A program made the position numbers and the translations under genes. A stretch of 39,766 nt of DNA from a virus. Location: positions 1 to 39,766 of IMG/VR virus record IMGVR_UViG_3300031951_000444, one strand, 5' to 3'. Shown piece after piece: positions 8,311 to 39,687 of this stretch. Each line of letters opens with the position of its first letter. The first letter of the stretch is position 1. The notes under the pieces are model-generated. The model was not told the DNA's origin, ran no database searches, and worked only from the letters and a program-made list of their open reading frames with translations.

Positions 8311-8346
8311 CCCGCCCGCATCGCTTCGCGCAGCGATGCGGGCGGG
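8311..8346. repeat. REP-like palindrome, 14-bp perfect arms
   Basis: CCCGCCCGCATCGC (8311-8324) and GCGATGCGGGCGGG (8333-8346) pair perfectly around an 8-nt loop. It sits between the stop of the 251-residue gene (8351) and the ParB start (8231), so it could also act as a transcript-processing or attenuating hairpin in the early operon. It belongs to the same family as 6297-6337 and 24287-24328. Confidence 0.75.
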
Positions 8347-8350
8347 TCAC

Positions 8351-9106
8351 TCAGTCGTTCCACTCGGGATCGATCCGCCGCAGGTCGATCTCCTCCGGCT
8401 TGCAGCCAAGCTCACGCGCCAGCTCACGCCGCTCCGCCTCCTCGCGCATCAGCTTCGCGCGGCGCTTCGCCTGGCTGCTCAAAGGCTCATCCTCCCGTTG
8501 CTTCGCCGGCAGCGGAGGCAGCTCATCACCGGGCCTGCGGCCACCCTTGCGGCTCGTGTTCCCCATGCGCTGCTTCGCATACGCCAAACGCGCCGCATGG
8601 CTCTTCCCGCCGGCGTGAATGAACTCCGACCGGCTGAACCGCGTCACCAGGTCCTCAATGATCCGCTCCACCTTGTGCTGCCAGTTCTGCTTCGAGTGCC
8701 CGAACAGCATCGATATCTCCGTATCCTTCGCCCCCCACACGTGATGGCGACTCCGCACGCTCACGTAAAGGTAAAGCCTTTCGAGCACCGCCAGCGGATC
8801 CGGCCCATCCGTGAACAGGAAATCAAAAAACACCCGCTGTGTTCTCAGCCCTGCCTCGCGACACTGCTCCCGCAGTCGCAGCACCTCCGCCAGCAGCTCC
8901 TCACGCGACGCCGCTGCCACATCCTCCAGCTCCGCCGGCATCTGCTCACCGTCGACACGTGTCGACCCCTCTTCGGCCTCCAGCACCGCCGTCAGCGGCG
9001 TCCGCAGATCCGCCGGATCAACGACAAGCCACTCCCCTTCCCGCTTCCACACCTGCGAAAGCACACCGCCCACTTGGGCTTCATATTCATCACTCGCCCG
9101 GCTCAT
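8351..9106 (-). CDS. Early-region protein of unknown function, helix-turn-helix-like
   Basis: About 251 residues from the ATG at 9106, which has GGAGG 8 nt upstream; the frame runs 13 codons further without support. I do not recognise the family. The central part (residues about 110-160, AVLERLYLYVSVRSRHHVW then EISMLFGHSKQNWQHKVERI) has the look of a winged or simple helix-turn-helix. The C-terminal 80 residues are highly charged and rich in Arg, Lys and Glu (for example SSQAKRRAKLMREEAERR). Position upstream of ParB and the replication genes suggests a role in replication initiation or early regulation. A 16-bp perfect palindrome, GTCGACACGTGTCGAC, sits inside the frame at 8951-8966 and also occurs at 32687-32702. 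Confidence 0.6.
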   Translation of the reverse strand: MSRASDEYEAQVGGVLSQVWKREGEWLVVDPADLRTPLTAVLEAEEGSTRVDGEQMPAELEDVAAASREELLAEVLRLREQCREAGLRTQRVFFDFLFTDGPDPLAVLERLYLYVSVRSRHHVWGAKDTEISMLFGHSKQNWQHKVERIIEDLVTRFSRSEFIHAGGKSHAARLAYAKQRMGNTSRKGGRRPGDELPPLPAKQREDEPLSSQAKRRAKLMREEAERRELARELGCKPEEIDLRRIDPEWND

Positions 9107-12163: not shown

Positions 12164-12496
12164 ATGGCCACCGACAAAACCGTCTCATTTCCCATCCGCT
12201 TACCCGCAGAGCTCGACCAGCTCTTGACCCAAATCTCCCAAGACACCGAGCTGTCGAAACAGGACATCATTCGTCTCTGCATCCGCATTGGCCTGGTTGA
12301 TCTCAAAGCGGCTGAAAAGGATCTCCCTGGCATCGTCAAACGCATTGCCGATGACAAAGGCGTCAGCTTCCAAGCCTTCGCCGATGCCAAACAGGCCGAG
12401 CACGAAAAGCCTCTCCAACGGCAGGACGTAAGTTACATCGCTCCACGCTCCTCACTCAAACCTCCCAAACGTCACGACCTCAACGAACGCGCGTGA
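12164..12496 (+). CDS. Ribbon-helix-helix regulator, plus strand
   Basis: 110 residues. KTVSFPIRLPAELDQLLTQI, then ELSKQDIIRLCIRIGLVDL, is an RHH DNA-binding domain (residues about 5-45). The C-terminal 60 residues (IVKRIADDKGVSF, ending in a basic, proline-rich tail) are not recognised. It is one of only two plus-strand genes and is followed by a strong bidirectional terminator. Together with the divergent 67-residue RHH gene and the shared operator it looks like a two-repressor switch for lysogeny. Confidence 0.7.
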   Translation: MATDKTVSFPIRLPAELDQLLTQISQDTELSKQDIIRLCIRIGLVDLKAAEKDLPGIVKRIADDKGVSFQAFADAKQAEHEKPLQRQDVSYIAPRSSLKPPKRHDLNERA

Positions 12497-14185: not shown

Positions 14186-14347
14186 GAGTGACGTCCTCGT
14201 GACGTTCAAACCGTCTTTTGCAGTCTTTTGAAGTCTCCTTAAGCCATGTCCGCCATCTAGTAAAGATGGCGACCCCTACGAGAATCGAAGGCGGGTTGGC
14301 TTTCGATTTTACAAGGCTTTGAGGACACGCGTGGCGTTTGAGTGACG
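14186..14347. other. Candidate attP with tRNA-like core
   Basis: Immediately upstream of the integrase, 14267-14289 read on the minus strand is TTCGATTCTCGTAGGGGTCG then CCA, which has the form of a tRNA T-loop, acceptor 3' strand, discriminator base and CCA. Flanking it are repeats that could bind the integrase arms: GAGTGACG at 14186-14193 and 14340-14347, GTGACG at 14199-14204, and tandem GTCTTTTG near 14212-14229. An 8-bp inverted repeat, CGCCATCT/AGATGGCG, overlaps the core (14251-14271). No full tRNA is present. Integration into a host tRNA gene is inferred. Confidence 0.55.
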
Positions 14348-14366
14348 CCATCGGTGCTTACCCAGC

Positions 14367-14825
14367 TCATGGCAAACGGCGGACGTGGGTGATGCGGCTG
14401 AGGGGGAAGGCGGTGATGTTGACGCTGTCAGCCTGGTTGCCGCCGAGGCATTCGATGCGGCCGTCTTTGGCGATGGCGTGGAAGAGGCACACGTGATTGC
14501 CTCCTGGGCGGGTCATGACGATGGTATCGCCTTGCTGCCACTGCTTGGGATCGAGGGGGACGGCGCGACCCCACTTGGCCCAGCTCGCGGCGCGATAATG
14601 TTCCGGCACGACGCCGGTGCCGGTGACGAGGCCGAGGTGGCCGCGAAAGCATCCGCACCAATGCGTCTTGCTGTCATCGCCATCGAGCCAGGTGGCGGCG
14701 GCTTTGATCCATGCTCGAATGCGAGGGTTGCTTTTGGAGCCGGGGACTTCGCGGACGCCGATGAATTGGAGGGCGGCGAGGTAGATGCGGCGGGAGGTGG
14801 TGAGCTGGGGGGCTTTGGTGGCCAT
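14367..14825 (-). CDS. Endolysin, TIGR02594-like amidase/peptidase
   Basis: 152 residues. LAALQFIGVREVPGSKSNP at the N-terminus, HWCGCFRGH (catalytic Cys region), and GDTIVMTRPGGNHVCLFHAI (catalytic His region) match the TIGR02594 group, an NlpC/P60-like cysteine peptidase fold common among phage endolysins. It should cleave host peptidoglycan at lysis. There is no signal peptide, so export would depend on a holin such as the multi-pass protein at 15341-15766. The ATG at 14825 is preceded by a TTTGACA box 13 nt upstream and by a long inverted repeat. Confidence 0.75.
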   Translation of the reverse strand: MATKAPQLTTSRRIYLAALQFIGVREVPGSKSNPRIRAWIKAAATWLDGDDSKTHWCGCFRGHLGLVTGTGVVPEHYRAASWAKWGRAVPLDPKQWQQGDTIVMTRPGGNHVCLFHAIAKDGRIECLGGNQADSVNITAFPLSRITHVRRLP

Positions 14826-15193: not shown

Positions 15194-15264
15194 GCGAGAA
15201 GGAATGGCGGGTGAATATTGGCAGCGTTGTGCTTGGACTGAAGGCGCGGTGTCAAAGCTCGGGC

Positions 15265-15316
15265 GAACTGCCGCTCATCGAACTTCGCCAAGCCTCAGTC
15301 GGTGAGCTCTTTGTTC
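15265..15316 (+). repeat. attC-like hairpin D (degenerate)
   Basis: GAAC at 15265-15268 pairs with GTTC at 15313-15316, an unpaired spacer follows (TGCC against TCTTT), then GCTCATCGA(A)CT faces AGTCGGTGAGC with one extrahelical A and one mismatch. It lacks the first extrahelical G seen in the other six sites. Located in the gap between the holin-like and lipoprotein genes, directly upstream of a TTTGACA box. Confidence 0.5.
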
Positions 15317-15340
15317 GCCCCGGACGGGCTAAAGCCCGAA

Positions 15341-18185: not shown

Positions 18186-18917
18186 TTAGGCGAGTTGCTT
18201 CCAGACTTTGGCGTTGGTGGAGGCGTGGTAGTCATCGGGGCGGACGATGCCGGAAGCGGCATCCTCGGCATCGGTAGAGGAGGCGAGACGCCAGGTCTCG
18301 AGTCGCTCGATGCTGTCCACGCTGCGCATGATGTGGATCAAGGTGCGGGCGGCGAGAGTGGTGGTGGGGATGCCGTCGAGGTTGGTGCTGCCTCCGCCGG
18401 TGAGGCCGGTGATGCTGGGGTAGTAGCGGATGGCATTCAGGGCGAGCCAGGTGAGGGAGCTGTCGGCGGTGGCTTCGGGAGCGGGATCTTCGGGCCGGTT
18501 GTAGGCGGTGTTGAAGAGAAGCGGAAAGGCGATGCGGCCGATCTCGCCATCGAGCTCGTATTCGATCTCGGCCCGCATCTCGAAGGGCTGCCAAGGCTCG
18601 GAGAATTCATCGAGCACGGCGCGGAGGCGGACGCTATCGGCATTGGTCCACTCGAAAAGGTATTCAGCCTCTTCTCCGGTGCCGGTGAGGACGGCGGAGG
18701 TGTCGATGAGGGCGGGCGTGCCAGAGGGGGCGTCTTTGGGTTTGATGACGCATTTGGCAGTGCCGACATCGATCTCGTGCTGCGTGCCCTCCGCGAAAAA
18801 ACGGGCGGTGATGGCGAGCCGGGTGAGGAGCGTGGCGTGAACGCTGGGTGTGCCGGTGCCGGTCAAGCCGGCGCGTGCGACGCGGTTCGTGGTGTCCAGA
18901 TAAACGATGTTTGGCAT
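18186..18917 (-). CDS. Tail-associated structural protein, unknown
   Basis: 243 residues. N-terminal beta-rich region (MPNIVYLDTTNRVARAGLTG), then IDTSAVLTGTGEEAEYLFEW and ADSVRLRAVLDEFSEPWQ, resembling immunoglobulin-like or baseplate-associated domains; the C-terminus is helical. It is placed immediately upstream of the tail fibre gene, so a fibre-attachment or baseplate part is likely. A TTTGACA box ends 14 nt before its ATG. No family recognised. Confidence 0.5.
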   Translation of the reverse strand: MPNIVYLDTTNRVARAGLTGTGTPSVHATLLTRLAITARFFAEGTQHEIDVGTAKCVIKPKDAPSGTPALIDTSAVLTGTGEEAEYLFEWTNADSVRLRAVLDEFSEPWQPFEMRAEIEYELDGEIGRIAFPLLFNTAYNRPEDPAPEATADSSLTWLALNAIRYYPSITGLTGGGSTNLDGIPTTTLAARTLIHIMRSVDSIERLETWRLASSTDAEDAASGIVRPDDYHASTNAKVWKQLA

Positions 18918-18999
18918 CGGGGGATGCCGGGTGTCAAAACCCGCCCGCCTGCGGCGGGAATGACGAAACCAGAATGAGGAAGGATGAAGGTTCGCAGTC

Positions 19000-19059
19000 G
19001 AACGTCTGCTGCGCCGAACTCAGCTCGCTCAGGCTCGCTGGTCGGCGAGCTCTTTGTTC
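19000..19059 (+). repeat. attC-like hairpin A
   Basis: GAAC (19000-19003) pairs with GTTC (19056-19059); spacer GTCT/TCTTT is unpaired; GCT(G)CGCCGA(A)C faces TCGGCGAGC with extrahelical G and A. It lies between the tail gene at 18186 and a small gene whose last codons (ENKELADQRA and stop) fall within it. Near-identical copies: 25278-25337 and 34710-34769. Confidence 0.7.
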
Positions 19060-19346
19060 TCCGAAGGCAGCGAGAAGCTCACCGCGTCCTTAAGTCTCTT
19101 GAGCGTGCAGTTGTCGCCATCGGCCAAGTGAAGGTTCTCCATGATCGTTGTTTCGATTGCCCATCGGAGTGATTCGATCATGGCGGCAGCATCGCGAAGA
19201 CACATTGTGGGCACGTGGTCAGGAGCCTTGATGCCGTCTGCGATCAATCGCAGGGCTTTGGGCATGTCGTTTAGTTCAGCTTTAGTCATGGGTAAATCGT
19301 CGGAGAACACAGCACGGCAGCGAACCGGCTGGAGTTGGTCTGTCAT
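19029..19346 (-). CDS. Small phage protein inside an attC-bounded segment
   Basis: About 105 residues from an ATG at 19346 that overlaps the previous stop (ATGA). The middle (RLIADGIKAPDHVPTMCLRD, then AAAMIESLRWAIETTIMENL) resembles short phage proteins with a repeated amphipathic helix near the end of an early operon; this is a weak likeness. Its C-terminus (NKELADQRA) and stop codon lie inside attC-like site A. It and the next gene fill the DNA between sites A (19000) and 1 (19534). Confidence 0.5.
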   Translation of the reverse strand: MTDQLQPVRCRAVFSDDLPMTKAELNDMPKALRLIADGIKAPDHVPTMCLRDAAAMIESLRWAIETTIMENLHLADGDNCTLKRLKDAVSFSLPSENKELADQRA

Positions 19347-19591
19347 GTAGCGGAGTCCTGCGCAGCCGGTTCGCTGCGTTTGACGTTCTCCTCTTTCCAC
19401 TTTGCGTAGGTCACATAGCAGTTGTCGGGAGAGATGTTGCAGTTCATCGCCTTGCAGCGTTTGCCAGTTCCGGGGCAGACCTTGCCGCGCCAGAGCCTCC
19501 ATCGGAGCCACACCCGAAAGCGAAGCCAGAGGAGAACAAGACGGTGATCAGAACCGCCCGAAGGCGTATGTTTTAATTCGGGAGTTTTCAT
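19343..19591 (-). CDS. Small Cys-rich protein inside an attC-bounded segment
   Basis: 82 residues. The middle (VCPGTGKRCKAMNCNISPDN, then CYVTY) has four cysteines that might bind zinc or iron. The N-terminal part (GSDHRLVLLWLRFRVWLRWR) is encoded by attC-like site 1 DNA, and the start ATG sits inside that site. No function assigned. A start further downstream in the frame is possible because the N-terminus looks low in protein-like character. Confidence 0.4.
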   Translation of the reverse strand: MKTPELKHTPSGGSDHRLVLLWLRFRVWLRWRLWRGKVCPGTGKRCKAMNCNISPDNCYVTYAKWKEENVKRSEPAAQDSAT

Positions 19592-19618
19592 GATGGGCGG
19601 TCTGATACCTCAGCGTTC
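19534..19618 (+). repeat. attC-like hairpin 1
   Basis: GAAC (19534-19537) pairs with GTTC (19615-19618); unpaired AAGAC faces TCAGC; GGT(G)ATCAGA(A)CCGCCC faces GGGCGG TCTGAT ACC. All paired positions match and the two unpaired bases, G and A, lie on the 5' arm, as extrahelical bases do in classical attC sites. The loop between arms is about 35 nt. Confidence 0.75.
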
Positions 19619-19710
19619 GTCATTGATTCATCATTCCTCATTCTGGTTTCGTCATTGCTTCGAGTGCGTCAATGGCATCCCATTGTTTTTCGAGGAAGGC
19701 GCGGAGCACT

Positions 19711-25106: not shown

Positions 25107-25390
25107 GCGAGATGGCGGGAGTCAAACCCCGGCCCGCCTTCGGCGGGAATGAGGAAACCAGAGCCGAGCGAAGCGAGACAGACGAACGAAGTGAGCCCGA
25201 AGGGGAGCGAAGCGAATCAATGAGGAATGCAGAATGAAGGGACTTCACTGACGACATTGACTGGAGTGACGATGAGCGAACGCCCGCTGCGCCGAACGGC
25301 GCTCGCTCAGGCTCGCTGGTCGGCGAGCTCTTTGTTCGTCATTGATTCCTCATTTCTCATTCTGGTTTCATCATTCCGGGCGGAGCCGGG
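25107..25390. repeat. Repeat-rich gap, 284 bp
   Basis: No credible gene. From the right it holds a linker repeat with hairpin (about 25340-25395), an attC-like hairpin (25278-25337), a stretch of CGAAGCGAG/GAACGAAG-type repeats, and another linker copy (about 25125-25150) with a CGCC..GGCG hairpin next to TTTGACT. Within the attC-like site on the minus strand an 11-codon open frame, MTNKELADQRA, ends like the gene at 19029. Confidence 0.6.
25278..25337 (+). repeat. attC-like hairpin B
   Basis: GAAC (25278-25281) pairs with GTTC (25334-25337); spacers GCCC/TCTTT unpaired; GCT(G)CGCCGA(A)C faces TCGGCGAGC. No gene lies between this site and its neighbours in a cassette-like way, so it may be a lone site left after cassette loss. 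Confidence 0.65.
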
Positions 25391-29983: not shown

Positions 29984-31285
29984 TTAGCCGAGCAGAACGG
30001 CGAGGTGCTCAGGCTTCATGACGGCGACGCCCCAGGCGATGGAGACATGGTAGGTGACCATGCGGTAGCCGGGATACACGGCGAGCTCAAAGGACAGGCC
30101 GCTGCGCGGATCGGTGATGATCTCGCGGTCAGTGGCGAGGTCTCCTTCCCGCGGCAGCGCCGGGAGGCGGGTTCCCAGCAAGATGGAATTGCGGGTGAAG
30201 CCGAGGTTGCGCTGGCTGGTGTTGTTCACCGTGATGGCGGTGTTGTCAGCCACGACTTCCTGAATGCCAGGAGCCGCCACCGTGAACGAACCGCCGCTCA
30301 AAGCCGTGGCGGCGACATACTTGTGGTTGCCAATGGTAACGACATCACCGGCGAGGATGGTGCCGCTGCCAGTATCCACATTGACGGTGGTATCACCGAC
30401 CGCGAGGGCGGCGCTGAGCTGGTAGCTGGCACCGGTGCCTTTGGTGGCGTTGTTGATCTGCGCGGAGGTGCGGAAATCAAAGTTGAAGATGTTGCCCAGC
30501 GAGCCCTGACGAAGGAAGCTGGAATCACCCGCTTCATTGACTTTGAAGAGCGAGGTTTGCTTGCCGCGCATCGTGGCGACAGCGGTGGTGCCCAGCACGC
30601 AATGACGATCCGACATGGGAGCGCCGTTGTCGTCGAGGATCTTGGCGAGCTGCGCAATATCGCTGAGATCGCCTGCGGTGCCGAAGGGTGTGGTGCCGGC
30701 GGTGCCATACGCACGGGAAGCACCGAGAGCGCCGTAATCGCAAAGGTCGTTTTCGATTTCGTTGACCAGTGCGCGGAGCGCCTGCGCAATCTGGTCCTGC
30801 TGGATGGTGAGGAAACCCGCGCCTGTTTCGACGGCTCCCTGCTCTTCACCCGTCCAGGAGAACGGCGCAAAGCGGCTTTTCTGGATGGTGAAGGTTTTAC
30901 TCGCAATGGTTTGATCCGAAGCGGACGGGATAGACATGGCAGGCGTGATATTCCCGACGGCGCTATTGATCGGAGCGACCGGGCTGCGCATGGTGGCATT
31001 GAGGGCACAGCGATCTGCACGGGGATCACGCTGGACGGCTGGGATCATGCCGACCATCTCACGACTCACGACATCGAGCGCGGCGAAGAAATCGGGGATG
31101 AGATTGGTGAGCGTATTGGCGAAGCAGGCACCGGCGGCGCGAGTTTCTGGCGTGCCATTGATGCCGAAGAGAACGGCACCACCAGCGACAGTGAAAAGCA
31201 GCGCGGTGCCGATGTGGCCGAACGATGCCTGGACGAGGATGGCGGCGACGATGCCGATGGTGAGGAGGGCGTTGAACAGTTTCAT
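29984..31285 (-). CDS. Major coat protein, P22-like, fused to a membrane segment
   Basis: 433 residues. From residue 56 (ANTLTNLIPDFFAALDVVSR, then EMVGMIPAVQRD) it matches the start of P22-type coat proteins, and the body has the expected inserted beta domain (DTTVNVDTGSGTILAGDVVT) and closing segment (YHVSIAWGVAVMKPEHLAVL). The preceding 55 residues are an in-frame extension holding two hydrophobic helices (3-21 FNALLTIGIVAAILVQA and 25-43 IGTALLFTVAGGAVLFGI), where the usual coat would start with Met at this ANTLTN site. No start codon lies at the fusion point. It has no Shine-Dalgarno site and its leader is an ATGGAGTG-type repeat. An unusual design for a capsid protein. Confidence 0.7.
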   Translation of the reverse strand: MKLFNALLTIGIVAAILVQASFGHIGTALLFTVAGGAVLFGINGTPETRAAGACFANTLTNLIPDFFAALDVVSREMVGMIPAVQRDPRADRCALNATMRSPVAPINSAVGNITPAMSIPSASDQTIASKTFTIQKSRFAPFSWTGEEQGAVETGAGFLTIQQDQIAQALRALVNEIENDLCDYGALGASRAYGTAGTTPFGTAGDLSDIAQLAKILDDNGAPMSDRHCVLGTTAVATMRGKQTSLFKVNEAGDSSFLRQGSLGNIFNFDFRTSAQINNATKGTGASYQLSAALAVGDTTVNVDTGSGTILAGDVVTIGNHKYVAATALSGGSFTVAAPGIQEVVADNTAITVNNTSQRNLGFTRNSILLGTRLPALPREGDLATDREIITDPRSGLSFELAVYPGYRMVTYHVSIAWGVAVMKPEHLAVLLG

Positions 31286-31330: not shown

Positions 31331-32488
31331 TCAGTCGATGAGCTTGCCGCCTTTTTTGATGAACTCGGCGCGGTTGAGAGGGGAGAGCTTGCTCCACTCA
31401 TCGCGTTTCATGGTGTTGGCTGGAGCCTCGGTGGCCACGGCGGCGACAGGCTGAGCACCGCCGAGGTTTTGAGGGGTGATGCCGTGATTGCTGAGATCGG
31501 TGAGGCGCTTGATCTCGGCTTGCAGCGGGGCGACGGCTGCATTGACCGCATTGGTGATCTGCGTGGCGAGATCGGGAGCGGCGGGAGCAGCAGGCGGCAC
31601 GGCATTGACCGGAGCGGCATTGACCGGAGCGGCGGGCGCTGCGGGAGCGGCGGCGGGTTGAGCGGGTGCGCCACTGCCGCCAGCGGGCGGACTTTCAGTG
31701 GCGGCGTTGAAGAGCGGTGTGTTTGGCTTGAGCATGGGAAGTGGCGCACGGGCGGCGTTCGAGATGCGGGACATGTCAAACCAGGCGCGGGCACCTTCCG
31801 GCATGGTGTTGAGCAAGGCGGGCCGGTAGTTCTCCGGCGCGGTGAGCTTTTCAGGATCGACGGTGATGGGCTCGATGACCTCATCGGCGAGGCCGAGGGC
31901 GACGGCGGCATTGCCATCCATCCACGTGTCGGCATCCATGATGTCCTGGATTTCTTCGAGGCTTTTGCCGGTGCGGGCGGCATAGAGTGCCGCGATGGAA
32001 TCATCGGCGACATCGAGCATGGCGGCGCACTGGCGCATGTCCTCGGCATTTCCCCAGCATCCGCCCGAGCTGTTGTGGATGAGGAAGAAGCTGTTGGCGG
32101 GGATTTGGACCTTCTGGCAGGCCAGGGCCGCATACGTGGCGGCGCTGGCGCAGATGCCGTAGATGACGGCGGTTTTGTTCGCGGGATGCTCCAGCAGCTT
32201 GTCGTGGATACCCTTGCCCACGGTGACGCTGCCGCCGTAGCTGTGGATCTCCACTCGCAGCTCCGGCACGTTGCCGATTTTCTTCAGCTCGGCGGCGAAC
32301 TCCTGGAAGGTTCCGGCTCCACCTTCAAGCCCCCACCAGGGGTCTCCGGCCTTGGAGACGCCGATGTCGCCAAACAGCTCGATCACCGGCACGCCGTTCG
32401 CGGCATTGCGGATCGCCCATGGGCGAGGCTGGGCATTGGAAGGAGCAAGGGCGGTGGAACGATGGAGATGGCGGTCTTTGCGGCGCAT
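31331..32488 (-). CDS. Prohead protease with C-terminal scaffold-like domain (ClpP/S49 type)
   Basis: 385 residues. Residues about 30-205 have the ClpP-like fold: HSYGGSVTVGKGIHDKL (oxyanion region), GICASAATYAALACQ (nucleophilic Ser), FFLIHNSSGG (His) and ADTWMDGNAAVALGLADEVI (Asp). A Pro/Ala-rich linker (PAQPAAAPAAPAAPVNAAPV) leads to a helical C-terminus (PDLATQITNAVNAAVAPLQA), likely the scaffold for coat assembly, as in lambda C/Nu3-type fusions. A TTTGACA box ends 13 nt before its ATG. Confidence 0.8.
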   Translation of the reverse strand: MRRKDRHLHRSTALAPSNAQPRPWAIRNAANGVPVIELFGDIGVSKAGDPWWGLEGGAGTFQEFAAELKKIGNVPELRVEIHSYGGSVTVGKGIHDKLLEHPANKTAVIYGICASAATYAALACQKVQIPANSFFLIHNSSGGCWGNAEDMRQCAAMLDVADDSIAALYAARTGKSLEEIQDIMDADTWMDGNAAVALGLADEVIEPITVDPEKLTAPENYRPALLNTMPEGARAWFDMSRISNAARAPLPMLKPNTPLFNAATESPPAGGSGAPAQPAAAPAAPAAPVNAAPVNAVPPAAPAAPDLATQITNAVNAAVAPLQAEIKRLTDLSNHGITPQNLGGAQPVAAVATEAPANTMKRDEWSKLSPLNRAEFIKKGGKLID

Positions 32489-32501
32489 GATGCGCGGCGG
32501 G

Positions 32502-32543
32502 TGTCAAACCACGCCGACAGCTTTGCAGTCAGGCGGGCAGGGC
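32502..32543. repeat. Repeat element shared with 24245-24286
   Basis: About 42 bp nearly identical to 24245-24286, including the TTTGACA box of the protease gene. It indicates that box and neighbouring sequence moved or duplicated as a unit. Confidence 0.65.
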
Positions 32544-32552
32544 GGTGAGAAG

Positions 32553-32704
32553 AGGTGGTTCCGGAATTCCGGAACCACCTCAGGGGCCAATGATCGGCAC
32601 GTGCCGATCATTCGGAAATCTCGAGCCCGGAATTCCGGACTCGAGATGTCACGCAGGAACGGGCTAAAGCCCGAACTACAAACGGGGTCGACACGTGTCG
32701 ACCC
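32553..32704. repeat. Four consecutive long palindromes
   Basis: Within 152 bp: a perfect 28-bp palindrome (32553-32580, half AGGTGGTTCCGGAA), a perfect 24-bp palindrome (32589-32612, half AATGATCGGCAC), a near-perfect 28-bp palindrome (32619-32646, CTCGAG ends and CCGGAATTCCGG centre), and a perfect 20-bp palindrome (32685-32704, GGGTCGACAC and inverse). A GGGCTAAAGCCC hairpin lies between the third and fourth. Two have a CACGTG centre. It fills the gap between the protease and portal genes. Confidence 0.8.
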
Positions 32705-34345
32705 TCAATTCTGCTGCATGGCATCGGCGAGATCGAGGGCGGAGACGCCGGCGGGATTGCTGCCTGGCATGCTTTGGCGAACGAGCTCATAGGGGACTCC
32801 ATGTTCCTCGCAGAGATCGAGCCAGGCTTTGACCTCGAGCACGCGGGCGCGGCGGACATCGGAGGCCTCAAGGCCGAGATCGGCGTAGAATTCTTCTTCG
32901 GTGCCGAGGCCTTTGTCGAGGCGATCGAGCCAGGTCTTGTAGAAGTAGCGCTCGTCGATGGTGATCTTGCGAGGGCCATGCCAACGGCAGAGGAAGGGGG
33001 ATGCGCCGTTGCGGGGCGGGCGGCCGTTATTGATGCGGCCGGTGAGGAGGCCCCAGCGGATGACGAAGTCACGCGTGGGCTTGCAGAAGCGGGAGATCAT
33101 GCGCCGCATGATGAATTTGAAGAACCAATCTGCCTGCGAGAGCGTGAAGCGGGTCTCCGGGCCGGTGCGGCCGGCGATGGCCCACACAAAGGAGGGCGGG
33201 ATGCCGAAGCCCCAAGCGATGTCATTGACGAGCCAGTCCATGAAGCCGGTGAAGGTGAGTGAGGGGCGATCGCTCTTCACCATTTCGAGCTTTTCGCCTT
33301 CTTTGAGGACGGGGATCAAGGCACCGCCCATGAAGTTGGCGTATTTGCGCATGATCTCGGTGTCGGTGGTGCCGGTGGTCCGTTTTTCGTCGGTCTTGGT
33401 GGCGCGGCGTTTGAAGATTTCACCTTCAAAGCCTTCGGGCATTTCACCGTCGGGGGTGGTGATGACGGCCCCGAAAAAAGCATTGAGATACGCGGCGGAT
33501 TCTTCGAGCGTCTTGAGATCCATCATGGTGATGGCGCTGCTTTGGCCGTGATGCGTCCAGGGGAGGCCACGGCCGATGCCAATGCGCTTCGGATCGAGCA
33601 CGAGCATGAAGTCACGGGCATCAAATTCGGCGAAGTTGCCATTCATGGCCGCGCCGAGGATGGGGCTGCGTGGATAGCCGGGGGCGGCATCGAGCTGGAT
33701 GCGGTATTTGAGGGCCTTGCCGAATTCATCACGGAGAACACCTTCGCTCCAGTTCTGCTTTGCACCTGGCGTGATGGGGGCCCAAGGCGTGAGGCCATCG
33801 CTGATTTGATCGGTGGCGAAGAGCTGGAGCTTGGGGGTATCGACGACGCGGCCGTTGAGATCACGACGGAGGATTTTTGCCGCGCCGCAGTCGCCATCCT
33901 TCATCATTTCCGGGGCGACGACTTCTTGCATCTCATACCAATTCCGACCGCCAGCGATGTCCATGCAGGTATCGTCCTCATTGGCCTCGAAGAGGGCATC
34001 GAGGACGCGGTTGCAGGAGTCGTCGAACTCTTGATCGCCGGTGGCGGCGTAGGAGACGAGGCCCTCGCCGATGGCGTAGCGGCCGCTGCCTTCGATCATG
34101 GCGCGGCCGAGGCCGGTGCGGTTGGCGATGAAGCGGGAGCGAGCGATGGAGGTTTTTCGCTCGATGGGCTTCATGTCCTGCAGCGCCCTCGTCGGCATGC
34201 CGCTGGGCTCGGTGCCGCGACCGGTGATGCCGGTGCCCCAGGGCGTGGCTGGGGCGGAGGCAGAATCGCCGGTGACGCTGTTTTGCGGCCCTTTGGCGAA
34301 CAAAGCGCCGATGGCGTTGGAGAGGCGGGAGCGAAAGGTGGTCAT
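32705..34345 (-). CDS. Portal protein, lambda B type
   Basis: 546 residues. ERKTSIARSRFIANRTGLGR near the N-terminus and later LDPKRIGIGRGLPWTHHGQS (the conserved wing region), LKTLEESAAYLNAFFGAVIT, and SDRPSLTFTGFMDWLVNDIA match the lambda-type portal family. It forms the ring at the DNA entry vertex, working with the GpA-type terminase and gpW-like joiner. The ATG at 34345 follows an ATTCCTCATTCG-type leader. Confidence 0.8.
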   Translation of the reverse strand: MTTFRSRLSNAIGALFAKGPQNSVTGDSASAPATPWGTGITGRGTEPSGMPTRALQDMKPIERKTSIARSRFIANRTGLGRAMIEGSGRYAIGEGLVSYAATGDQEFDDSCNRVLDALFEANEDDTCMDIAGGRNWYEMQEVVAPEMMKDGDCGAAKILRRDLNGRVVDTPKLQLFATDQISDGLTPWAPITPGAKQNWSEGVLRDEFGKALKYRIQLDAAPGYPRSPILGAAMNGNFAEFDARDFMLVLDPKRIGIGRGLPWTHHGQSSAITMMDLKTLEESAAYLNAFFGAVITTPDGEMPEGFEGEIFKRRATKTDEKRTTGTTDTEIMRKYANFMGGALIPVLKEGEKLEMVKSDRPSLTFTGFMDWLVNDIAWGFGIPPSFVWAIAGRTGPETRFTLSQADWFFKFIMRRMISRFCKPTRDFVIRWGLLTGRINNGRPPRNGASPFLCRWHGPRKITIDERYFYKTWLDRLDKGLGTEEEFYADLGLEASDVRRARVLEVKAWLDLCEEHGVPYELVRQSMPGSNPAGVSALDLADAMQQN

Positions 34346-34381: not shown

Positions 34382-34681
34382 TCAGCCGACGCCCGGAGTG
34401 AATTGGACTTGAAGGAGAGAGCCGCCACCGAGGTCAGAGCCGCCGAGGAAGCGGAGGGCCGCAACAATGGCGTCGTGCTGCGTGAGATCGGAGATGCCAC
34501 GGCGCGACGTGGACGAACCGGCCTCACCACTGGCGCTTTGCGTCTCCCAATCACCGGCATCGATGGCGGTGGTGTATTCGCGGCGCTTGGCTTTGAGCCA
34601 CTCGATTTGCTTGTCTGGATCGGTCCCGACAGCGTCTTCCGCGTCGAGCAGCCATTTGTTTCTGAGTCGTGTGTCCGCCAT
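34382..34681 (-). CDS. gpW-like head-tail joining protein
   Basis: About 99 residues from the ATG at 34681; TTTGACA lies 15 nt upstream. KWLLDAEDAVGTDPDKQIEW and KRREYTTAIDAG form the helix-rich start seen in gpW-type joiners, and QHDAIVAALRFLGGSD continues it. Position between terminase side and portal agrees. The 3' end overlaps no gene. gpW-type joiners seal the portal after packaging. Confidence 0.6.
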   Translation of the reverse strand: MADTRLRNKWLLDAEDAVGTDPDKQIEWLKAKRREYTTAIDAGDWETQSASGEAGSSTSRRGISDLTQHDAIVAALRFLGGSDLGGGSLLQVQFTPGVG

Positions 34682-34709
34682 GTGTTGGCGGCGGGGTGTC
34701 AAAGGGGCC

Positions 34710-34769
34710 GAACGTCCGCTGCGCCGAACTCAGCTCGCTGAGGCTCGCTAGTCGGCGAGCTCTTGGTTC
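34710..34769 (+). repeat. attC-like hairpin C
   Basis: GAAC (34710-34713) pairs with GTTC (34766-34769); spacers GTCC/TCTTG unpaired; GCT(G)CGCCGA(A)C faces TCGGCGAGC. The last codons of the 73-residue zinc-ribbon gene (NQELAD, stop) lie in it. Its left neighbour is a TTTGACA box. Confidence 0.7.
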
Positions 34770-34969
34770 CCCTGCTGATTGTTGTGGCTAGGACTTCGGC
34801 GCATGTTGTTTAAGCACGACGGACACACCCACGTTTTACCGCCAGGAACCAGCCCCCACCCCTCTTTGCGGAAAGTTTTGATGCACGCCGATTTTGTGCC
34901 GCTGACTTGATTCCATGCCGTGCAGACCCCGCACCAGACGGTCCATTGTGGTGTTAGTCCCTCACTCAC
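34748..34969 (-). CDS. Small zinc-ribbon protein
   Basis: 73 residues starting with GTG (34969), backed by AGGAGG eight nt upstream and overlapping the prior stop. WCGVCTAWNQVSG and WVCPSCLNNM give two CxxC pairs, a zinc ribbon. Small zinc-ribbon proteins in phages may bind host RNA polymerase or DNA. Its C-terminus (SHNNQQGNQELAD) is encoded by attC-like site C DNA. Confidence 0.6.
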   Translation of the reverse strand: MSEGLTPQWTVWCGVCTAWNQVSGTKSACIKTFRKEGWGLVPGGKTWVCPSCLNNMRRSPSHNNQQGNQELAD

Positions 34970-35214
34970 GCTGCCACCTCCTTATCCATGCGAGCCAGCA
35001 GGGTTTTCGCATTGCTCACGATCTCGGCTTTACGCTGCGCGATCTCGGCCTCCATTGCCGCGATGTCGCGCAGGTCACGACAAATCTCGAAGTGGGTGTC
35101 TGTGTTTTGCCAGTAGCGCATTCCTTCGCCAGTCAGCGCCTCCCAATGGGCGGCGAGAGCTGGCAGAATCTCTGCGGTTGGCAAGGCGGCGATTGATTCA
35201 GCAGTGTGTTTCAT
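34966..35214 (-). CDS. Small helical protein, unknown
   Basis: About 82 residues from the ATG at 35214 (MKHTAESIAALPTAEILPAL); the open frame is longer but its upstream part overlaps the divergent regulator and has no protein character. The C-terminal half (RDLRDIAAMEAEIAQRKAEI) is a coiled coil. A promoter with -35 TTGCGC, a 17-bp spacer and -10 CATAAT ends nine nt before the ATG, so its transcript may be almost leaderless. The promoter overlaps a repeated operator. Confidence 0.55.
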   Translation of the reverse strand: MKHTAESIAALPTAEILPALAAHWEALTGEGMRYWQNTDTHFEICRDLRDIAAMEAEIAQRKAEIVSNAKTLLARMDKEVAA

Positions 35215-35223
35215 GGTGCTGCT

Positions 35224-35250
35224 ATTATGTCGGCAATGCCGATTTTGCGC
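35224..35250 (-). promoter_or_regulatory. Promoter TTGCGC-17-CATAAT
   Basis: On the minus strand -35 TTGCGC (35250-35245), 17-bp spacer, -10 CATAAT (35229-35224), then AGCAGCACC before the ATG at 35214. The spacer contains one of the 13-bp operators, so a bound regulator would block this promoter. Confidence 0.6.
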
Positions 35251-35274
35251 AAGCTCTATTTTCGGCATTGCCGA
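35230..35274. promoter_or_regulatory. Paired 13-bp operators
   Basis: TCGGCAATGCCGA (35230-35242) and TCGGCATTGCCGA (35262-35274) are two near-identical palindromes with centres 32 bp (three turns) apart, located between the small regulator gene (plus) and the divergent 82-residue gene (minus). Confidence 0.7.
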
Positions 35275-35283
35275 TTTATTTTT

Positions 35284-35532
35284 ATGGGCTACACTCCTGC
35301 CATGCCTTTCTCTGACCAACTTGCCGACTACACCGCAGCCGACATCATCGCCGCCTTGAACTGTCCGCGTGGCACGGCCTACGACTGGAAGGATGGCAGG
35401 CGCGAGCCTCCAGCGTGGCAACAGTCGCATTGGCTGGCGCTCCTTCAACGCTCCAGACCAACGCAGGGGAACAAGACGGTGATCCGAACAAATGCCAGCC
35501 GGGCGAGCACTGGGGCAAAGCGGAAGCGGTAG
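35284..35532 (+). CDS. Small helix-turn-helix regulator, Cro/YdaS-like
   Basis: About 82 residues from the ATG at 35284 (or MPFSDQL from 35302). QLADYTAADIIAALNCPRGT, then AYDWKDGRREPPAWQQSHWL is a helix-turn-helix with a DWKDGR recognition segment, as in Cro or YdaS-type regulators. The last 20 residues, including NKTVIRTNASRAST, lie in attC-like site 2. It is divergent from an 82-residue gene across two operators, so it likely controls its own region. One of only two plus-strand genes, with cassette-like placement before an attC-like site. Confidence 0.6.
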   Translation: MGYTPAMPFSDQLADYTAADIIAALNCPRGTAYDWKDGRREPPAWQQSHWLALLQRSRPTQGNKTVIRTNASRASTGAKRKR

Positions 35533-35577
35533 GGCGGCTGTCATTTGTCGGATACCTCCGCGGTATGCGAAGGGCAG
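35469..35577 (+). repeat. attC-like hairpin 2
   Basis: GAAC AAGAC GGT(G)ATCCGA(A)CAAATG (5' arm) faces CATTTG TCGGAT ACC (3' arm), with one mismatch pair further in and two extrahelical bases. The outer 3' box reads GGTA in place of GTTC, so it is the only site with a changed crossover box. The regulator gene ends inside the 5' arm; the 91-residue minus-strand gene ends inside the 3' arm. Confidence 0.65.
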
Positions 35578-35816
35578 CCCATGAGTGCCCACCGTAGCAG
35601 GTTCACGATTTCGCGTTTCGAGTGCCGTCCGTGTATGAGGTCCATCGCCAGTTCGTCAGCGCCATACACTTCGGGCACCTCCATCTCTGTCGGGTGACTG
35701 GCGGCGATTGCCTCAGCCACGTCTTTCCCGGTCATGCGGCCCACACGTTGCACGGTCGCATACCAGTCCACTGGTGCCAACCTTTGGTCGGCGTCGGAGT
35801 CTATTGGTGTTTTCAT
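35541..35816 (-). CDS. Small protein in the accessory region, unknown
   Basis: About 91 residues from the ATG at 35816, with GGAGG about 12 nt upstream. It contains VDWYATVQRVGRMTGKDVAE and a helical end (DLIHGRHSKREIVNLLRWAL). No function assigned. Its 3' end lies in the 3' arm of attC-like site 2 and it is followed by the cytosine methyltransferase gene upstream on the same strand (33 bp gap), so the two form a two-gene unit between attC-like sites 2 and 3. Confidence 0.5.
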   Translation of the reverse strand: MKTPIDSDADQRLAPVDWYATVQRVGRMTGKDVAEAIAASHPTEMEVPEVYGADELAMDLIHGRHSKREIVNLLRWALMGCPSHTAEVSDK

Positions 35817-35849
35817 GGTTTTTCTTCGCCTCCCGCAGGTCGGCACAGT

Positions 35850-36497
35850 TCAGCGGTTCGCCTGACGGAATCCGCCCCATTGGTGAGCCATCGCAGCGGC
35901 GATTCCTGCGAAGGTTTTCGAGCGTTCCTTCCATCGGTCGGCACTCGGCGGCATCTTGAAGATTCTCTGTTCGCGGCCTTCCACGATGTTCGTCGGCTGG
36001 AGCTTGGGCAGTCCCTTGAGCCAGAGGCACGTTGCCTTTGTCTCTCCATGGCCGAACTGCCACGGCTGGATTACTTGGTCGGGCTTCCGCCACATGCTGG
36101 ACATGATGCAGACCGGGTTTTCGATGGCGATTTTCGGGATCGGTGAGCGAGCCAGCATCATGAAGAAGCTCACGGCGCTTTGCTGCCGCCCGTCCTTGCG
36201 CTTTTCCGCGAAGTGCTTCGCACCGCTCACGCTCAGGTGAGTGCATGGCGGGTGAGCTATCATCAGATCCCACGGGTAGTCCATGAGGTCGCGCACGTCG
36301 CCGCAGTAGTGCGGGCCATCGGCATCGGACGGCAGCAGGTCACAGGACATGGCATCGTGTCCCAAGGCGCGGAAGGCATCTCTCACCGCTCCGCTGTATT
36401 CGCACGCCACCAGAACCCGCAAAGGCGAACAAGACGGTGCATGGAACACGGCGGGCGCGTCCAGGGCGAGTTCTAGCGTTGAGGGTGCCGTGTCCAT
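35850..36497 (-). CDS. DNA cytosine methyltransferase, phage type
   Basis: 215 residues. LRVLVACEYSGAVRDAFRAL (SAM-binding start), DLMIAHPPCTHLSVSGAKHF (PC-containing motif IV with the nucleophilic Cys) and KIAIENPVCI (ENP, in place of the ENV of motif VI) match C5-type DNA cytosine methylases, in the short form common in phages. The target recognition region is short, so specificity is unknown. It may protect the phage genome from restriction alongside the separate amino-methyltransferase fusion. Its N-terminus (FHAPSCSP) and start codon are encoded in attC-like site 3 DNA. Confidence 0.75.
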   Translation of the reverse strand: MDTAPSTLELALDAPAVFHAPSCSPLRVLVACEYSGAVRDAFRALGHDAMSCDLLPSDADGPHYCGDVRDLMDYPWDLMIAHPPCTHLSVSGAKHFAEKRKDGRQQSAVSFFMMLARSPIPKIAIENPVCIMSSMWRKPDQVIQPWQFGHGETKATCLWLKGLPKLQPTNIVEGREQRIFKMPPSADRWKERSKTFAGIAAAMAHQWGGFRQANR

Positions 36498-36511
36498 GAC
36501 CTTATGCGTTC
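36427..36511 (+). repeat. attC-like hairpin 3
   Basis: GAAC (36427-36430) pairs with GTTC (36508-36511); AAGAC faces TTATGC; GGT(G)CATGGA(A)CACGGC faces GCCGTG TCCATG ACC. Pairing is complete and the two unpaired bases are G and A. The methyltransferase start codon lies in its 3' arm. Confidence 0.75.
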
Positions 36512-36660
36512 GGCTCCTGTGTCGGTTTCACGATGCCGATGACGACGATGTTTTCATCGTGCCACCGCACTTTGAGCCCGGTTTGTTTGGCCTGTTCAAT
36601 GAACGAGGCGACGAGCGCTCGCTGGGCTTCTTCGCCCGGGGTTGGGAGGTCGTCAGGCAT
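36502..36660 (-). CDS. Small protein overlapping terminase end, unknown
   Basis: About 52 residues from the ATG at 36660, which overlaps the terminase stop. MPDDLPTPGEEAQRALVASF and HDENIVVIGIVKPTQEPNA; short alpha/beta. TTGACA lies 15 nt upstream of the ATG, inside the terminase 3' end. No family recognised. Confidence 0.45.
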   Translation of the reverse strand: MPDDLPTPGEEAQRALVASFIEQAKQTGLKVRWHDENIVVIGIVKPTQEPNA

Positions 36661-38761
36661 CGGAGTCGTCGGGGGTGTCAATGTCGGTGTCGTTTTCGTC
36701 GTCATCATCATCGGCATGCAGTGCTTCGAGTCCGATGCCGAAACGGGCGCGGATCTTATACCAGCCCGCGAGGCATTCGGTCACGGCATCGCCCCAGTCA
36801 TCGGGGCCGCCATCACGGAACCAATCGCCGATCTTCAGCACGCGACCGCGGCGCGTGAGCTTTTTTTTGTTTCGCTGGCGCTCTTTCTCGTCGTCTTCGG
36901 TCCACCGACGATGCGTGGTGAGCTCAGCGCAGAGATCGTTGTCAGGATTCCGGTAGATGCGGAATTGGCCGGCGGGCGGTGTGAGGCCTTTGCGCAGCGC
37001 CGCGGCGATCTCGGCGGCCTGGCCGATGCGCTCGTCGTAGAGCTCCTCCGCGAAAGCATCGGCATTGAAGATGTAGCGCGGCAGTGCCATGCGGTTGTAG
37101 CGGTTCTGCGCCTGCTTTTGAACAAGGTCCTTCATGGAGGCCGTTTGCGATCCACCACGCCCTTTTGCCGGGTAGAAGAGGCGGTAGGCTCCTTTGGTGG
37201 TGCAGAATTCGAGCACGGATTTCGTGCGCTGGCCGTCGCCTTCGTCGATAAGCGCGAAATCGACGACTGGATTGATGCGCTCGTCTTCGGGTGTGTCACC
37301 CCAATCATCGACGATGACAGGTTTTCGCGCCTCATCCAGGAGGCCGGTGTAGCCTTTGAAGACGATGCCGTAGTCGAGCAGCTCCATGGAATCATCTTCG
37401 AAGAAGGCGCACTTGACCCATTTCCGGCCGTAGTGCTGCACATCGACGCCCATGATGATGGCGAGCGGCACGCGGCTGCAGTGACCGCGGGCGAACTGGC
37501 CCTGGAGGGCGCGAATATCGGCGATGGTGCGTGCGTTGTCGCGGTTCTCGGGGCCCACAGGCAGGCCTTCGCGGGAACGGCGGAATTTTTTGCGCTTCGA
37601 TGAGTTGTTGGCGCTGACGATCTCCAACGCGAGATGACCGAGCGTGGATCTCGGCATGTAGTGGAGCGCGTAGAAATCGCCCGCCTGGTAGCTGAGCTTT
37701 CGCGGGATGGGCTGGACGTGGCCGTCCTCGCTGATGTCCGCTTTGATGGTCTTTCCATCGTCCTGCAGTGCGCCGTCGGGTGTGTTCGTCGGGATGTAGA
37801 GGCGGTGCTGAAGCATCCACTCTTTGTGGTGCTCCTCGATGCGGCCGCCGCACTGGTTGCACTCATACCAGGTATCACGAAGGATGAGATCGTAGTCCCA
37901 GCGGCCCTCGGCGGTTTTGCAATGCTCGTAACGCAGCCCGGCGCGGACAAGGGTCTGATAGCCGCGTGGCAGTGGCATCTGCAATTGGGCGCGAAGGCGC
38001 GGGCCGTGTATGGCATCGGGCGGCAGCTCGCCGCTGCAGTGCGGGCATGGCACAAAGCATCGGTGCCGAGATCCAGAAAGAAACTCAGGCCAGATGACAT
38101 CTTCTTCATTGCGCGGCTTGCTGAAGACGATCAGCTTCGAGCCTTCTTGGCGCTTCAAGCGATCGCGGAGAAGATCGACAATGGTCGATTCGCCGCCTTT
38201 CATCTCCTCGGGCGTTTCATCCGTCTCATCGACAATAGCCCAGGCGGCGGATTTGTTCGCCGCGGCGCCCGGCGACTGCGAGCCGATGAGATAGACCGTC
38301 ATGCCGTTGAGGTAGAGGGTCATGTTCTGCAGCTTGTCCTCGTCGATCTGGCCTTTGGACTGCGGCAGCCGTGAAGCGATCGCTTCGCAGTTGCGGATCA
38401 TCGGCTTGAGCCTGGTCTCGCCGATGCGCTTGATTTCTTCGCGGTTGTTGATGGCGTAGATGACATCCTGCGGGTTGAACTTCATCTTGTGCATCAGCGC
38501 GGCGAGCACTCCGAGCGTCATGCCTTGCTGCGAGGACTTCGGATTGATGAACTCGTCGTAGTCATCGGACTCGATGAAATCGAACAGGATCGAGACCGTG
38601 GGCGAGCGGTCGGGATCGTAGTAGCCGGGGAATTGCTTCGACTCTTCTTTGGTGAGCTTGACGTTCTTTTTCACCCACGCCTCGACACGCTCCGGCAGAT
38701 CGAGCGTAAAAGCCCGCATCATGAGGGCCATCGTCCAGTTTTGAACGTCACGCCATTTCAT
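36653..38761 (-). CDS. Terminase large subunit, GpA type
   Basis: About 702 residues from the ATG at 38761 (MKWRDVQNWTMALMM), overlapping the small subunit stop. KSSQQGMTLG is a lambda-like variant Walker A; AAWAIVDETDETP is Walker B. Two Cys pairs (CPHC and CNQC) form a zinc-binding insert. The nuclease part has IIMGVDVQHYGRKW and VDFALIDEGDGQRT, with conserved Asp residues. It cuts and translocates phage DNA with the small subunit and portal. The lambda-like type suggests cos-end or pac-type packaging in the lambda style; ends at the window edges are consistent with this. Confidence 0.85.
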   Translation of the reverse strand: MKWRDVQNWTMALMMRAFTLDLPERVEAWVKKNVKLTKEESKQFPGYYDPDRSPTVSILFDFIESDDYDEFINPKSSQQGMTLGVLAALMHKMKFNPQDVIYAINNREEIKRIGETRLKPMIRNCEAIASRLPQSKGQIDEDKLQNMTLYLNGMTVYLIGSQSPGAAANKSAAWAIVDETDETPEEMKGGESTIVDLLRDRLKRQEGSKLIVFSKPRNEEDVIWPEFLSGSRHRCFVPCPHCSGELPPDAIHGPRLRAQLQMPLPRGYQTLVRAGLRYEHCKTAEGRWDYDLILRDTWYECNQCGGRIEEHHKEWMLQHRLYIPTNTPDGALQDDGKTIKADISEDGHVQPIPRKLSYQAGDFYALHYMPRSTLGHLALEIVSANNSSKRKKFRRSREGLPVGPENRDNARTIADIRALQGQFARGHCSRVPLAIIMGVDVQHYGRKWVKCAFFEDDSMELLDYGIVFKGYTGLLDEARKPVIVDDWGDTPEDERINPVVDFALIDEGDGQRTKSVLEFCTTKGAYRLFYPAKGRGGSQTASMKDLVQKQAQNRYNRMALPRYIFNADAFAEELYDERIGQAAEIAAALRKGLTPPAGQFRIYRNPDNDLCAELTTHRRWTEDDEKERQRNKKKLTRRGRVLKIGDWFRDGGPDDWGDAVTECLAGWYKIRARFGIGLEALHADDDDDENDTDIDTPDDSDA

Positions 38762-39687
38762 GCCGTGAGCGCTTCGAGGTTCAGAACTGGCGCGAAACGC
38801 CCCTCGCGGAGGCCGTTGCAATGCTCAATCCAGGCTGTGCGCCAGATTTTGCGGCCTTCCGCATGATCGGTGATGCCGCGGAGCTTCGGGCCGATTTTGT
38901 CATACAACAGCATCCCGCTGGTGACGACGGTGGTGAGCAGCGGAAGCAAGGCTCTTTCAATCATCGCGACCTCGACAAGACTGCCTTCTTCGGCGGCGAT
39001 TTTCAGGTAGCGCTGCTGAATCAGTGAAAGCGCATCGAGTGCCTCTCGGTAACGGCGGTCGTAGGCGTCGCCATCCGTGAGCTTGTCGTTTTTGTAGGCT
39101 TCATCGCGTGCGACTCGCAGCGAAGCGACCCGCTTTTCCTCGGCCTCGATCTCGAATTTCAAACCCTGCGCCACTCCATGATCAGCGGTGAAGGCTGATG
39201 GCACGGGATTGCCCGGTGCAGTTGCCTCGTCAAGCCGTCTCGCCTGGCCAGCGGGCAAAGTGAATGAGGCCGCTTGCTTTGGTGGAGATCCTCGCAAGTG
39301 CTCAGTGATGGCCTCGCGGACTTTTTTGGGAAACTGGTGTGTAAAAGCTCCGCGTGCTTTCATTCGCTCATACCAGGCCCCGAGTTGCTCAGGCTCGTCA
39401 AATGGCGGCAAGTCTGGCCCGCCGGGATTACTCTCACCGGCGGCTTTCCAGCGAAAGAAGGTCCGGCGGGCCACACCAATGTGCATGTAGTCATCGGCCG
39501 CGCGGACATAGCCGTTGCTTTTTGAGCGAGAGACCGAGACCGCAACCGGCAAGATGTGCTCGATTTCGGCTTGCTCGCTCTTGCTGAGGTTTCCACCGGC
39601 GAGCCATTTTCCCAGGATGACAGATTCCCGAGCCTCAGCAGCACCGAGGCCCATGATCATCTGCGATGGCATTGCTTTTTCATCCAC
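38758..39687 (-). CDS. Terminase small subunit-like protein
   Basis: 309 residues with a GTG start (39687), with the box TTTTGACA 13 nt upstream; an in-frame ATG is at 39672. It has a helix-turn-helix region (MHIGVARRTFFRWKAAGESN) near residues 70-90 and a long helical C-terminus (QQRYLKIAAEEGSLVEVAMI). Position first in the packaging operon and overlap with GpA support terminase small subunit, though it is longer than many such proteins and no single family is certain. Confidence 0.6.
   Translation of the reverse strand: MDEKAMPSQMIMGLGAAEARESVILGKWLAGGNLSKSEQAEIEHILPVAVSVSRSKSNGYVRAADDYMHIGVARRTFFRWKAAGESNPGGPDLPPFDEPEQLGAWYERMKARGAFTHQFPKKVREAITEHLRGSPPKQAASFTLPAGQARRLDEATAPGNPVPSAFTADHGVAQGLKFEIEAEEKRVASLRVARDEAYKNDKLTDGDAYDRRYREALDALSLIQQRYLKIAAEEGSLVEVAMIERALLPLLTTVVTSGMLLYDKIGPKLRGITDHAEGRKIWRTAWIEHCNGLREGRFAPVLNLEALTA

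Follow-up and report, generated by a model that had tools for sequence, protein, structure and literature searches.

What are the hairpins that bound a block of accessory genes between the terminase and gpW-like genes of an environmental phage, and by which route did these genes arrive? The locus lies in a viral sequence of 39,766 nucleotides (IMG/VR record IMGVR_UViG_3300031951_000444, positions 1 to 39,766), which was analysed as a whole and is called the window below. The original prediction, made from the sequence alone, had described three attC-like sites enclosing two cassettes. We conclude with high confidence that the region is an integron array lacking an integrase (CALIN), built by an integron integrase (IntI) in a temperate phage of Verrucomicrobiaceae, with inverted cassettes to which the attC sites would offer a start codon, a leader or a tail.

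A covariance model, R1, was built from 9 attC sites taken from intI-adjacent arrays in Verrucomicrobiaceae genomes, with no phage sequence included. Its top seven matches in the window are all on the plus strand and start at 36424 (47.2 bits), 19531 (35.3), 19302 (27.3), 34707 (20.4), 35471 (14.9), 18997 (12.6) and 25275 (11.5), the last three being too weak to stand singly; the remaining matches score 11.1 bits or less. A rule-based scanner, set to the order R''-spacer-L'' (one extra base)-loop-L'-spacer-R', returned two window sites (36424 and 19531); dinucleotide-shuffled windows gave a mean of 0.5 sites each, and of 0.025 when only equally strong sites (score of at least 11) are counted. 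An Rfam search at the gathering threshold gave no match, and the motif GTTCGGC by itself occurs at chance level. Chance does not account for the hairpin sites or for the gene ends within them; both are real.

Positions 34707-36514 of the window (1.8 kb) comprise four attC sites, all on the plus strand, and three cassettes, flanked by phage genes on both sides (a gpA-type terminase on one, gpW-like and portal-like genes on the other):

34382-34681, minus strand: gpW-like gene, one flank; no match in Pfam and PHROG searches, homologues in the relatives L007-L012
34707-34772, plus strand: attC site C, short type; R'' GCCGAAC, R' GTTCCCC; L'' CGCCG[A]ACT, L' AGTCGGCG; cut between 34766 and 34767; R1 20.4 bits, E 0.0015
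34748-34969, minus strand: Zn-ribbon-like ORF, 73 aa, C-terminus ...GNQELAD* inside site C; no match in Pfam and PHROG searches
34767-35562: cassette 1, between the G^TT of sites C and 2; Zn-ribbon gene, small gene and divergent HTH gene
34966-35214, minus strand: small ORF, 82 aa, overlapping the Zn-ribbon start; no match in Pfam and PHROG searches
35230-35274: two operator-like palindromes, TCGGCAATGCCGA at 35230 and TCGGCATTGCCGA at 35262, between the divergent genes of cassette 1
35302-35532, plus strand: HTH ORF, 76 aa, running forward into site 2; weak HTH_23 match, E 0.0064
35466-35568, plus strand: attC site 2; R'' GGGGAAC, R' GGTATGC; L'' ATCCG[A]ACAAATG, L' CATTTGTCGGAT; R1 14.9 bits, E 0.043 (match start 35471)
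35541-35846, minus strand: cassette 2 ORF, 101 aa
35563-35856: cassette 2, between the G^TT cuts of sites 2 and 2b; a single small ORF
35758-35862, plus strand: attC site 2b; R'' GCATACC, R' GTTCGCC; L'' GTGCC[A]ACCT, L' AGGTCGGCAC; no R1 match
35850-36497, minus strand: DNA methyltransferase, 215 aa, ATG at 36497 inside site 3; phrog_757, E 1.2e-72
35857-36508: cassette 3, between the G^TT cuts of sites 2b and 3; the DNA methyltransferase
36424-36514, plus strand: attC site 3; R'' GGCGAAC, R' GTTCGGC; L'' CATGG[A]ACACGGC, L' GCCGTGTCCATG; cut between 36508 and 36509; R1 47.2 bits, E 1e-10
36502-36717, minus strand: 71-aa ORF after the terminase, C-terminus ...TQEPNA* in site 3
36653-38821, minus strand: gpA-type terminase, other flank

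The R''-L''-loop-L'-R' anatomy with an extra base in L'' is present in the array sites, the exception being site 2b, where R'' ends in ACC instead of AAC and a mismatch replaces the extra base. For this reason 2b was overlooked in the original prediction: sites C, 2 and 3 hold, but what had been taken as one segment with a small gene and a methyltransferase is two cassettes divided at 35758-35862. The gene ends described earlier were found again, namely the NQELAD-stop of the Zn-ribbon gene in site C, the HTH C-terminus in site 2 and the methyltransferase start in site 3, as were the operator-like elements of the first segment (the twin palindromes) and the interruption of the terminase to gpW order. 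No transposase was found among the proteins of the array segment in searches with Pfam, PHROG and TIGR02249 profiles. A CALIN is recognised by at least two attC sites within about 4 kb with no intI nearby, and this is what the window array presents.

The R boxes tell more than the hairpins. In an array built by an integrase, the bases following the G of R' come from the next cassette, and R' should therefore match the R'' of the next site. Here R' of site C (GTTCCCC) is the exact reverse complement of R'' of site 2 (GGGGAAC), R' of site 2 (GGTATGC) that of R'' of 2b (GCATACC), and R' of 2b (GTTCGCC) that of R'' of site 3 (GGCGAAC), while R' of the last site (GTTCGGC) returns to R'' of the first (GCCGAAC). 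Site 2 looked like an exception to this rule until a comparison with contig L101 exposed site 2b. Over four arrays of this phage lineage the crossed boxes are exact in 11 of 13 cases and agree in 6 of 7 bases in the other two, whereas the R'' and R' of the same site match exactly in 1 of 13; none of 200,000 permutations reached the crossed-box score of these arrays. The corresponding figure is 28 of 29 in Verrucomicrobiaceae host arrays, and 25 of 33 over 16 phage arrays with uncorrected window coordinates, where two of the eight misses stem from the window array and are exact after correction. We infer from this signature that the array arose by integron recombination at G^TTRRRY.

Further attC-like sites occur in the window:

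15262-15319, plus strand: lone short site, own R'' and R' 7/7 complementary; R1 10.7 bits
18997-19621, plus strand: second array with two small inverted cassettes; sites 18997-19062, 19302-19391 and 19531-19621
25275-25340, plus strand: lone short site, weak (R1 11.5 bits); the same position in the relative L083 is 12282-12347, cassette-free in both

Crossed boxes of the second array match in 7/7, 7/7 and 6/7 bases. This slot lies before a gene of about 243 aa (18186-18917); the window has two cassettes in it, and L083 has one, which is not the same as either. The lone sites at 15262 and at 2315 of L008 have self-complementary boxes of their own, as expected of an unused site; for the pair at 25275 and L083 12282 the own boxes agree in 5/7 and 6/7 bases.

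Presence, absence and replacement of the cassettes were followed in close relatives. Scans with the portal protein and a conserved 17-mer gave seven in the collections, counting the window: the window itself, L007, L008, L009 (the same as L023 and L083), L010, L011 and L012; contig 3300042691_037444 (L002, L006, L036) belongs to the same population as the window. In L007 and L009/L083, with portals 92-94% identical, the whole block is absent and the terminase lies directly beside gpW, and the same is found in L011 and L012 (about 71%). The slot of L010 holds three different cassettes, one of them with an N6/N4 DNA methyltransferase, and four sites with all crossed boxes exact. Contig L008 starts precisely at the R' box of an attC upstream of gpW, as would be expected if the population carries varying cassettes there. 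An empty attC in precisely the gpW slot was found in none of these relatives. At 14217-14480, L012 has a short attC-like site (R' GTTATGC), after which comes what may be a small cassette, its R'' being GCATACC.

One cassette was also found elsewhere. Positions 35850-36510 of the window are 93% identical to 7703-8362 of L101, a phage-like contig with late genes different from those of the window, where the insertion point is the end of a 759-aa late gene. Homology ends 2 bp past one predicted G^TT cut and 6 bp past the other, on the site 2b side; the 3.5 kb compared show no similarity outside the cassette, and L101 has no match to any other ORF of the window. As judged from this alignment, the methyltransferase cassette has moved between unrelated phages. 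Its product matches the phrog_757 family of phage DNA methyltransferases in residues 25-213, and what sets the window and L101 proteins apart from that family is an N-terminal leader encoded by attC. The methyltransferases of the window and L010 were not found in 67 host-family genomes, in a search run without a positive control. The cassette methyltransferases probably act against host restriction.

These comparisons favour the original prediction, which had proposed modular acquisition by site-specific recombination at the hairpins and had looked to precise absence or replacement in relatives: four relatives are empty, one is replaced and the methyltransferase cassette stands alone in L101, and relatives with the same genes but breakpoints elsewhere were not seen. 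The proposal has to be amended in two respects, the second segment being two cassettes and the genes being oriented against attC.

In phage arrays this orientation is the rule. The longest ORF runs against attC in 24 of 25 intervals from 12 phage arrays, most of which were found by searching for a pattern derived from this type of attC; the arrays of L010, L083 and the window are independent of it. Host integron intervals of Verrucomicrobiaceae have the longest ORF along attC in 26 of 29 cases and reversed in 3; in both sets orientation was scored by the longest ORF, with firm homology for methyltransferases only. Of 32 phage intervals, 28 have a main reversed ORF that extends in frame into its own attC, 23 have an ATG or GTG inside that attC, and 30 have an ORF that ends in the next attC. 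For forward host cassettes the corresponding measures are 19/29 (into the upstream attC), 9/29 (ATG or GTG there) and 7/29 (end within attC), and the first body start is usually 5-25 nt after R'. Continuity with attC is thus frequent in GC-rich host arrays as well (the same 19/29).

The first approximately 24 residues of the window methyltransferase, MDTAPSTLELALDAPAVFHAPSCS, are encoded by site 3. In 13 viral contigs a site-3-like attC with AAGG, ATG and the leader MDTAP..LE...DAPA.FHAPSCS is in frame with a gene, and the leader, in the form MD[TA]A[PS]..LE...DAPA[VA]FHA, precedes at least four different genes: the phrog_757 methyltransferase (window, L101), a DPPYG methyltransferase family, an unassigned protein with the motif HPPCQRW (L114) and a small protein (L112). 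At window position 19591 and in L090 and L094 the leader is of a second type, M[KN]..P....GGS[DN]HRLV. The start codons in attC may be used for translation; the Shine-Dalgarno-like motif upstream of the leader ATGs has poor spacing, and it is possible that the methyltransferases start instead at a TTG just after attC. Common descent may explain part of the in-frame reading of the leader. Leader and site 3 had no match among 50,697 named phages. The attC type AACAAGACGGTG...ACCT was found 0 times in 289 Verrucomicrobiota genomes, a set with far less DNA than the viral collection, so that this count is no proof of phage specificity.

At the other end of the genes, the 71-aa ORF would read ...TQEPNQELAD* if the outer halves of sites C and 3 were joined at the cut without the insert. 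The Zn-ribbon gene appears in this way to have taken over the original tail of the 71-aa ORF. Genes of L010, L110 and the second array end in one frame of the short attC, as NKEISDNG*, NTKLTDK* and NKELADQRA*. Related HPPCQR-type proteins stand behind two different attC leaders at L114 2562 and at 32304-32969 of record G365, which suggests capture of the same gene together with different attC sites.

We propose the following mechanism. A resident short attC beside gpW would have received the cassettes one by one, through an integron integrase that cuts the folded single strand at the G^TT of R'. This enzyme would come in trans, either from the host or from a co-infecting phage carrying intI. 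A gene running against attC would have its own attC at the 5' end, offering a start codon and a leader peptide, and the attC on its far side would offer a C-terminal tail and a stop. Read in the phage direction, the array would be a series of swappable attC-linked genes, DNA methyltransferase being the typical cargo. The basis is what the nucleotide sequences hold: site anatomy, crossed boxes, presence, absence and replacement, one cassette transfer, inverted orientation and in-frame continuity; from these we infer the recombinase, the use of start codons in attC and the function of the cargo.

A wider reading, which we hold tentatively and put at slightly below an even chance, is that of an integron system specific to phages. 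Inverted cassettes, with attC as mobile 5' and 3' coding ends, would pass among unrelated phages as a common pool; a phage-encoded IntI such as that of G365, or host IntI, would move them, and resident short attC sites in late operons would be their docking points. Against this stands the view that the cassettes are true integron cassettes whose inversion is merely selection by the phage operon from a mixed pool, the starts and stops in attC being incidental. In the window, L010 and L083 the docking attC is oriented against phage transcription, which means that only reversed genes would be expressed there, and reversed genes are also a small minority in host arrays, as counted above. It is harder to reconcile with this view that the same inverted type with its leader recurs in unrelated phages and slots, and that cassettes of 124-157 bp can be read through in one open frame over their whole length, from attC to attC; on balance we regard it as rather unlikely.

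Far less probable is an explanation that sees the hairpins as terminators or as dispersed palindromic repeats, with ordinary homologous recombination between these repeats having moved the modules. The short sites are indeed near-identical and dispersed within one phage, and attC can act as a weak terminator (PMC9892861). Crossovers within such repeats would however give sites whose own R'' and R' boxes are matched or mixed, not the match to the next site seen above (11/13 versus 1/13); the homology shared with L101 would not be expected to end within 2 and 6 bp of the G^TT cuts, nor the sites to fit an attC model trained on hosts, with the extra A in the L'' arm. That these are ordinary phage morons, swapped by illegitimate recombination and bearing an incidental likeness to attC, is hardly credible, even though late-operon intervals often house morons and the methyltransferase family is common in phages (phrog_757 relatives in 968 records), since sites reach 47 bits with a model free of phage sequence, crossed boxes recur over 16 similar arrays, an unrelated phage has the same cassette, and the crossed boxes already contradict it.

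As to the source of the recombinase, no IntI was found in the window record, where the best TIGR02249 match has 26-28 bits (cut-off 265), and a complete integron, with intI and attI beside the array, is absent from the window. The tyrosine integrase of the phage (13006-14175, minus strand; phrog_1, E 2.4e-35) was considered as an integron integrase and rejected at 28 bits against the same cut-off. IntI above the cut-off is present in 24 of 68 Verrucomicrobiaceae genomes; the L009/L023 virus sits in a Verrucomicrobiaceae MAG that has two. Among 18 array-bearing virus records a phage-encoded IntI was found in G365 only (IMGVR_UViG_3300031857_000421; contig L121, 1514-2515; 354 bits), beside an inverted-cassette array. 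It is 42-49% identical to IntI of the host family, and its closest PDB entry is IntI4 (2a3v). The record of 42.6 kb has genes for a virion protein, DnaB and primosome functions. Its array lies directly beside intI, the attC sites being oriented away from that gene, which is the usual arrangement, and an inverted methyltransferase gene reads towards intI; the attI was assigned by position only. Just before the first cut of both arrays, L101 (8340-8400) and L121 (1440-1520) have TCTGGATAAT in common, possibly a remnant of attI. G365 has a second array at record positions 32227-33857; the idea that it runs against the phage genes was dropped, as the local gene direction is ambiguous.

Integrons and CALINs in phages, with methyltransferase cargo, are already known (Qi et al. 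2023, PMC9892861). In that study 5 of 6 tested phage attC sites were recombined with attI1 by IntI1, and the TJE1 and PH101 arrays are presented as typical, with genes in the same direction (PMC9892861). On re-reading, TJE1 has its gene forward, up to attC, and gives no R1 match. The window array resembles those phage CALINs in its integrase-free attC sites and its cargo, and differs from them in its inverted genes, for which attC carries start and stop, in the reuse of slots by relatives and in the sharing of cassettes among unrelated phages. A forward gene with attC at its 3' end, as is usual in CALINs, is what the phage intervals lack, 24 of 25 being reversed; this orientation is usual and not obligatory in integrons, and our claim is therefore one of an inverted variant. 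The sedentary chromosomal integrons of Verrucomicrobiaceae share the attC grammar and the R boxes, with crossed boxes as given above, and differ in their forward genes (26/29), which usually start 5-25 nt after R'. Cassettes can also be inserted at G-TT sites other than attC, termed attG. Like such insertions, the cassettes lie in the phage backbone outside an integron, for example in L101 at the end of the 759-aa late gene; unlike them, the entry point in the window and L010 is a full attC, and L101 and G365 have the attI-like TCTGGATAAT before the first cut. The literature searched, which took in no subscription journals or preprints, has no account of phage cassettes that are inverted and have their starts in attC. 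What seems new relative to known phage CALINs is the inversion of the cassettes, with attC seeming to supply gene start and stop.

Phage mosaicism is usually ascribed to homologous or illegitimate recombination. The arrays suggest a site-specific process in which phages whose hosts bear integrons acquire, drop and exchange genes one at a time in set positions, the genes often being methyltransferases. If real, the inverted arrangement would give attC a dual role, as a folded recombination site and as a coding leader, would turn round the order of gene and attC given in textbooks, and would account for how cassettes without a promoter can be expressed from a phage operon. Traffic of cassettes from phage to phage becomes directly testable.

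By the contigs compared, the inverted module type is found in many unrelated phages. Arrays are accompanied by terminase and portal genes (L108, L092), primase and terminase-like genes (L114), a head-tail adaptor (L115), DnaB (L117, L094), head morphogenesis and tape measure genes (L106), RecT-like genes (L090, L116), a tail fibre (L112) and an integrase (L113). In the distant phages L092 and L029, too, an attC lies between terminase-like and portal-like genes. Record G071 has a further R1 match at 30772-30897. An intergenic repeat close to GAATGACGAAACCAGAATGAGGAATGA occurs in the window near 6000, 10030, 18100, 18926-18990, 19626-19656, 25345-25377 and 26132, and also in L083; it lies outside the attC sites. 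Two large window ORFs, 6051-8363 and 3770-6034, match ParB-like and helicase/DNA methyltransferase PHROG families.
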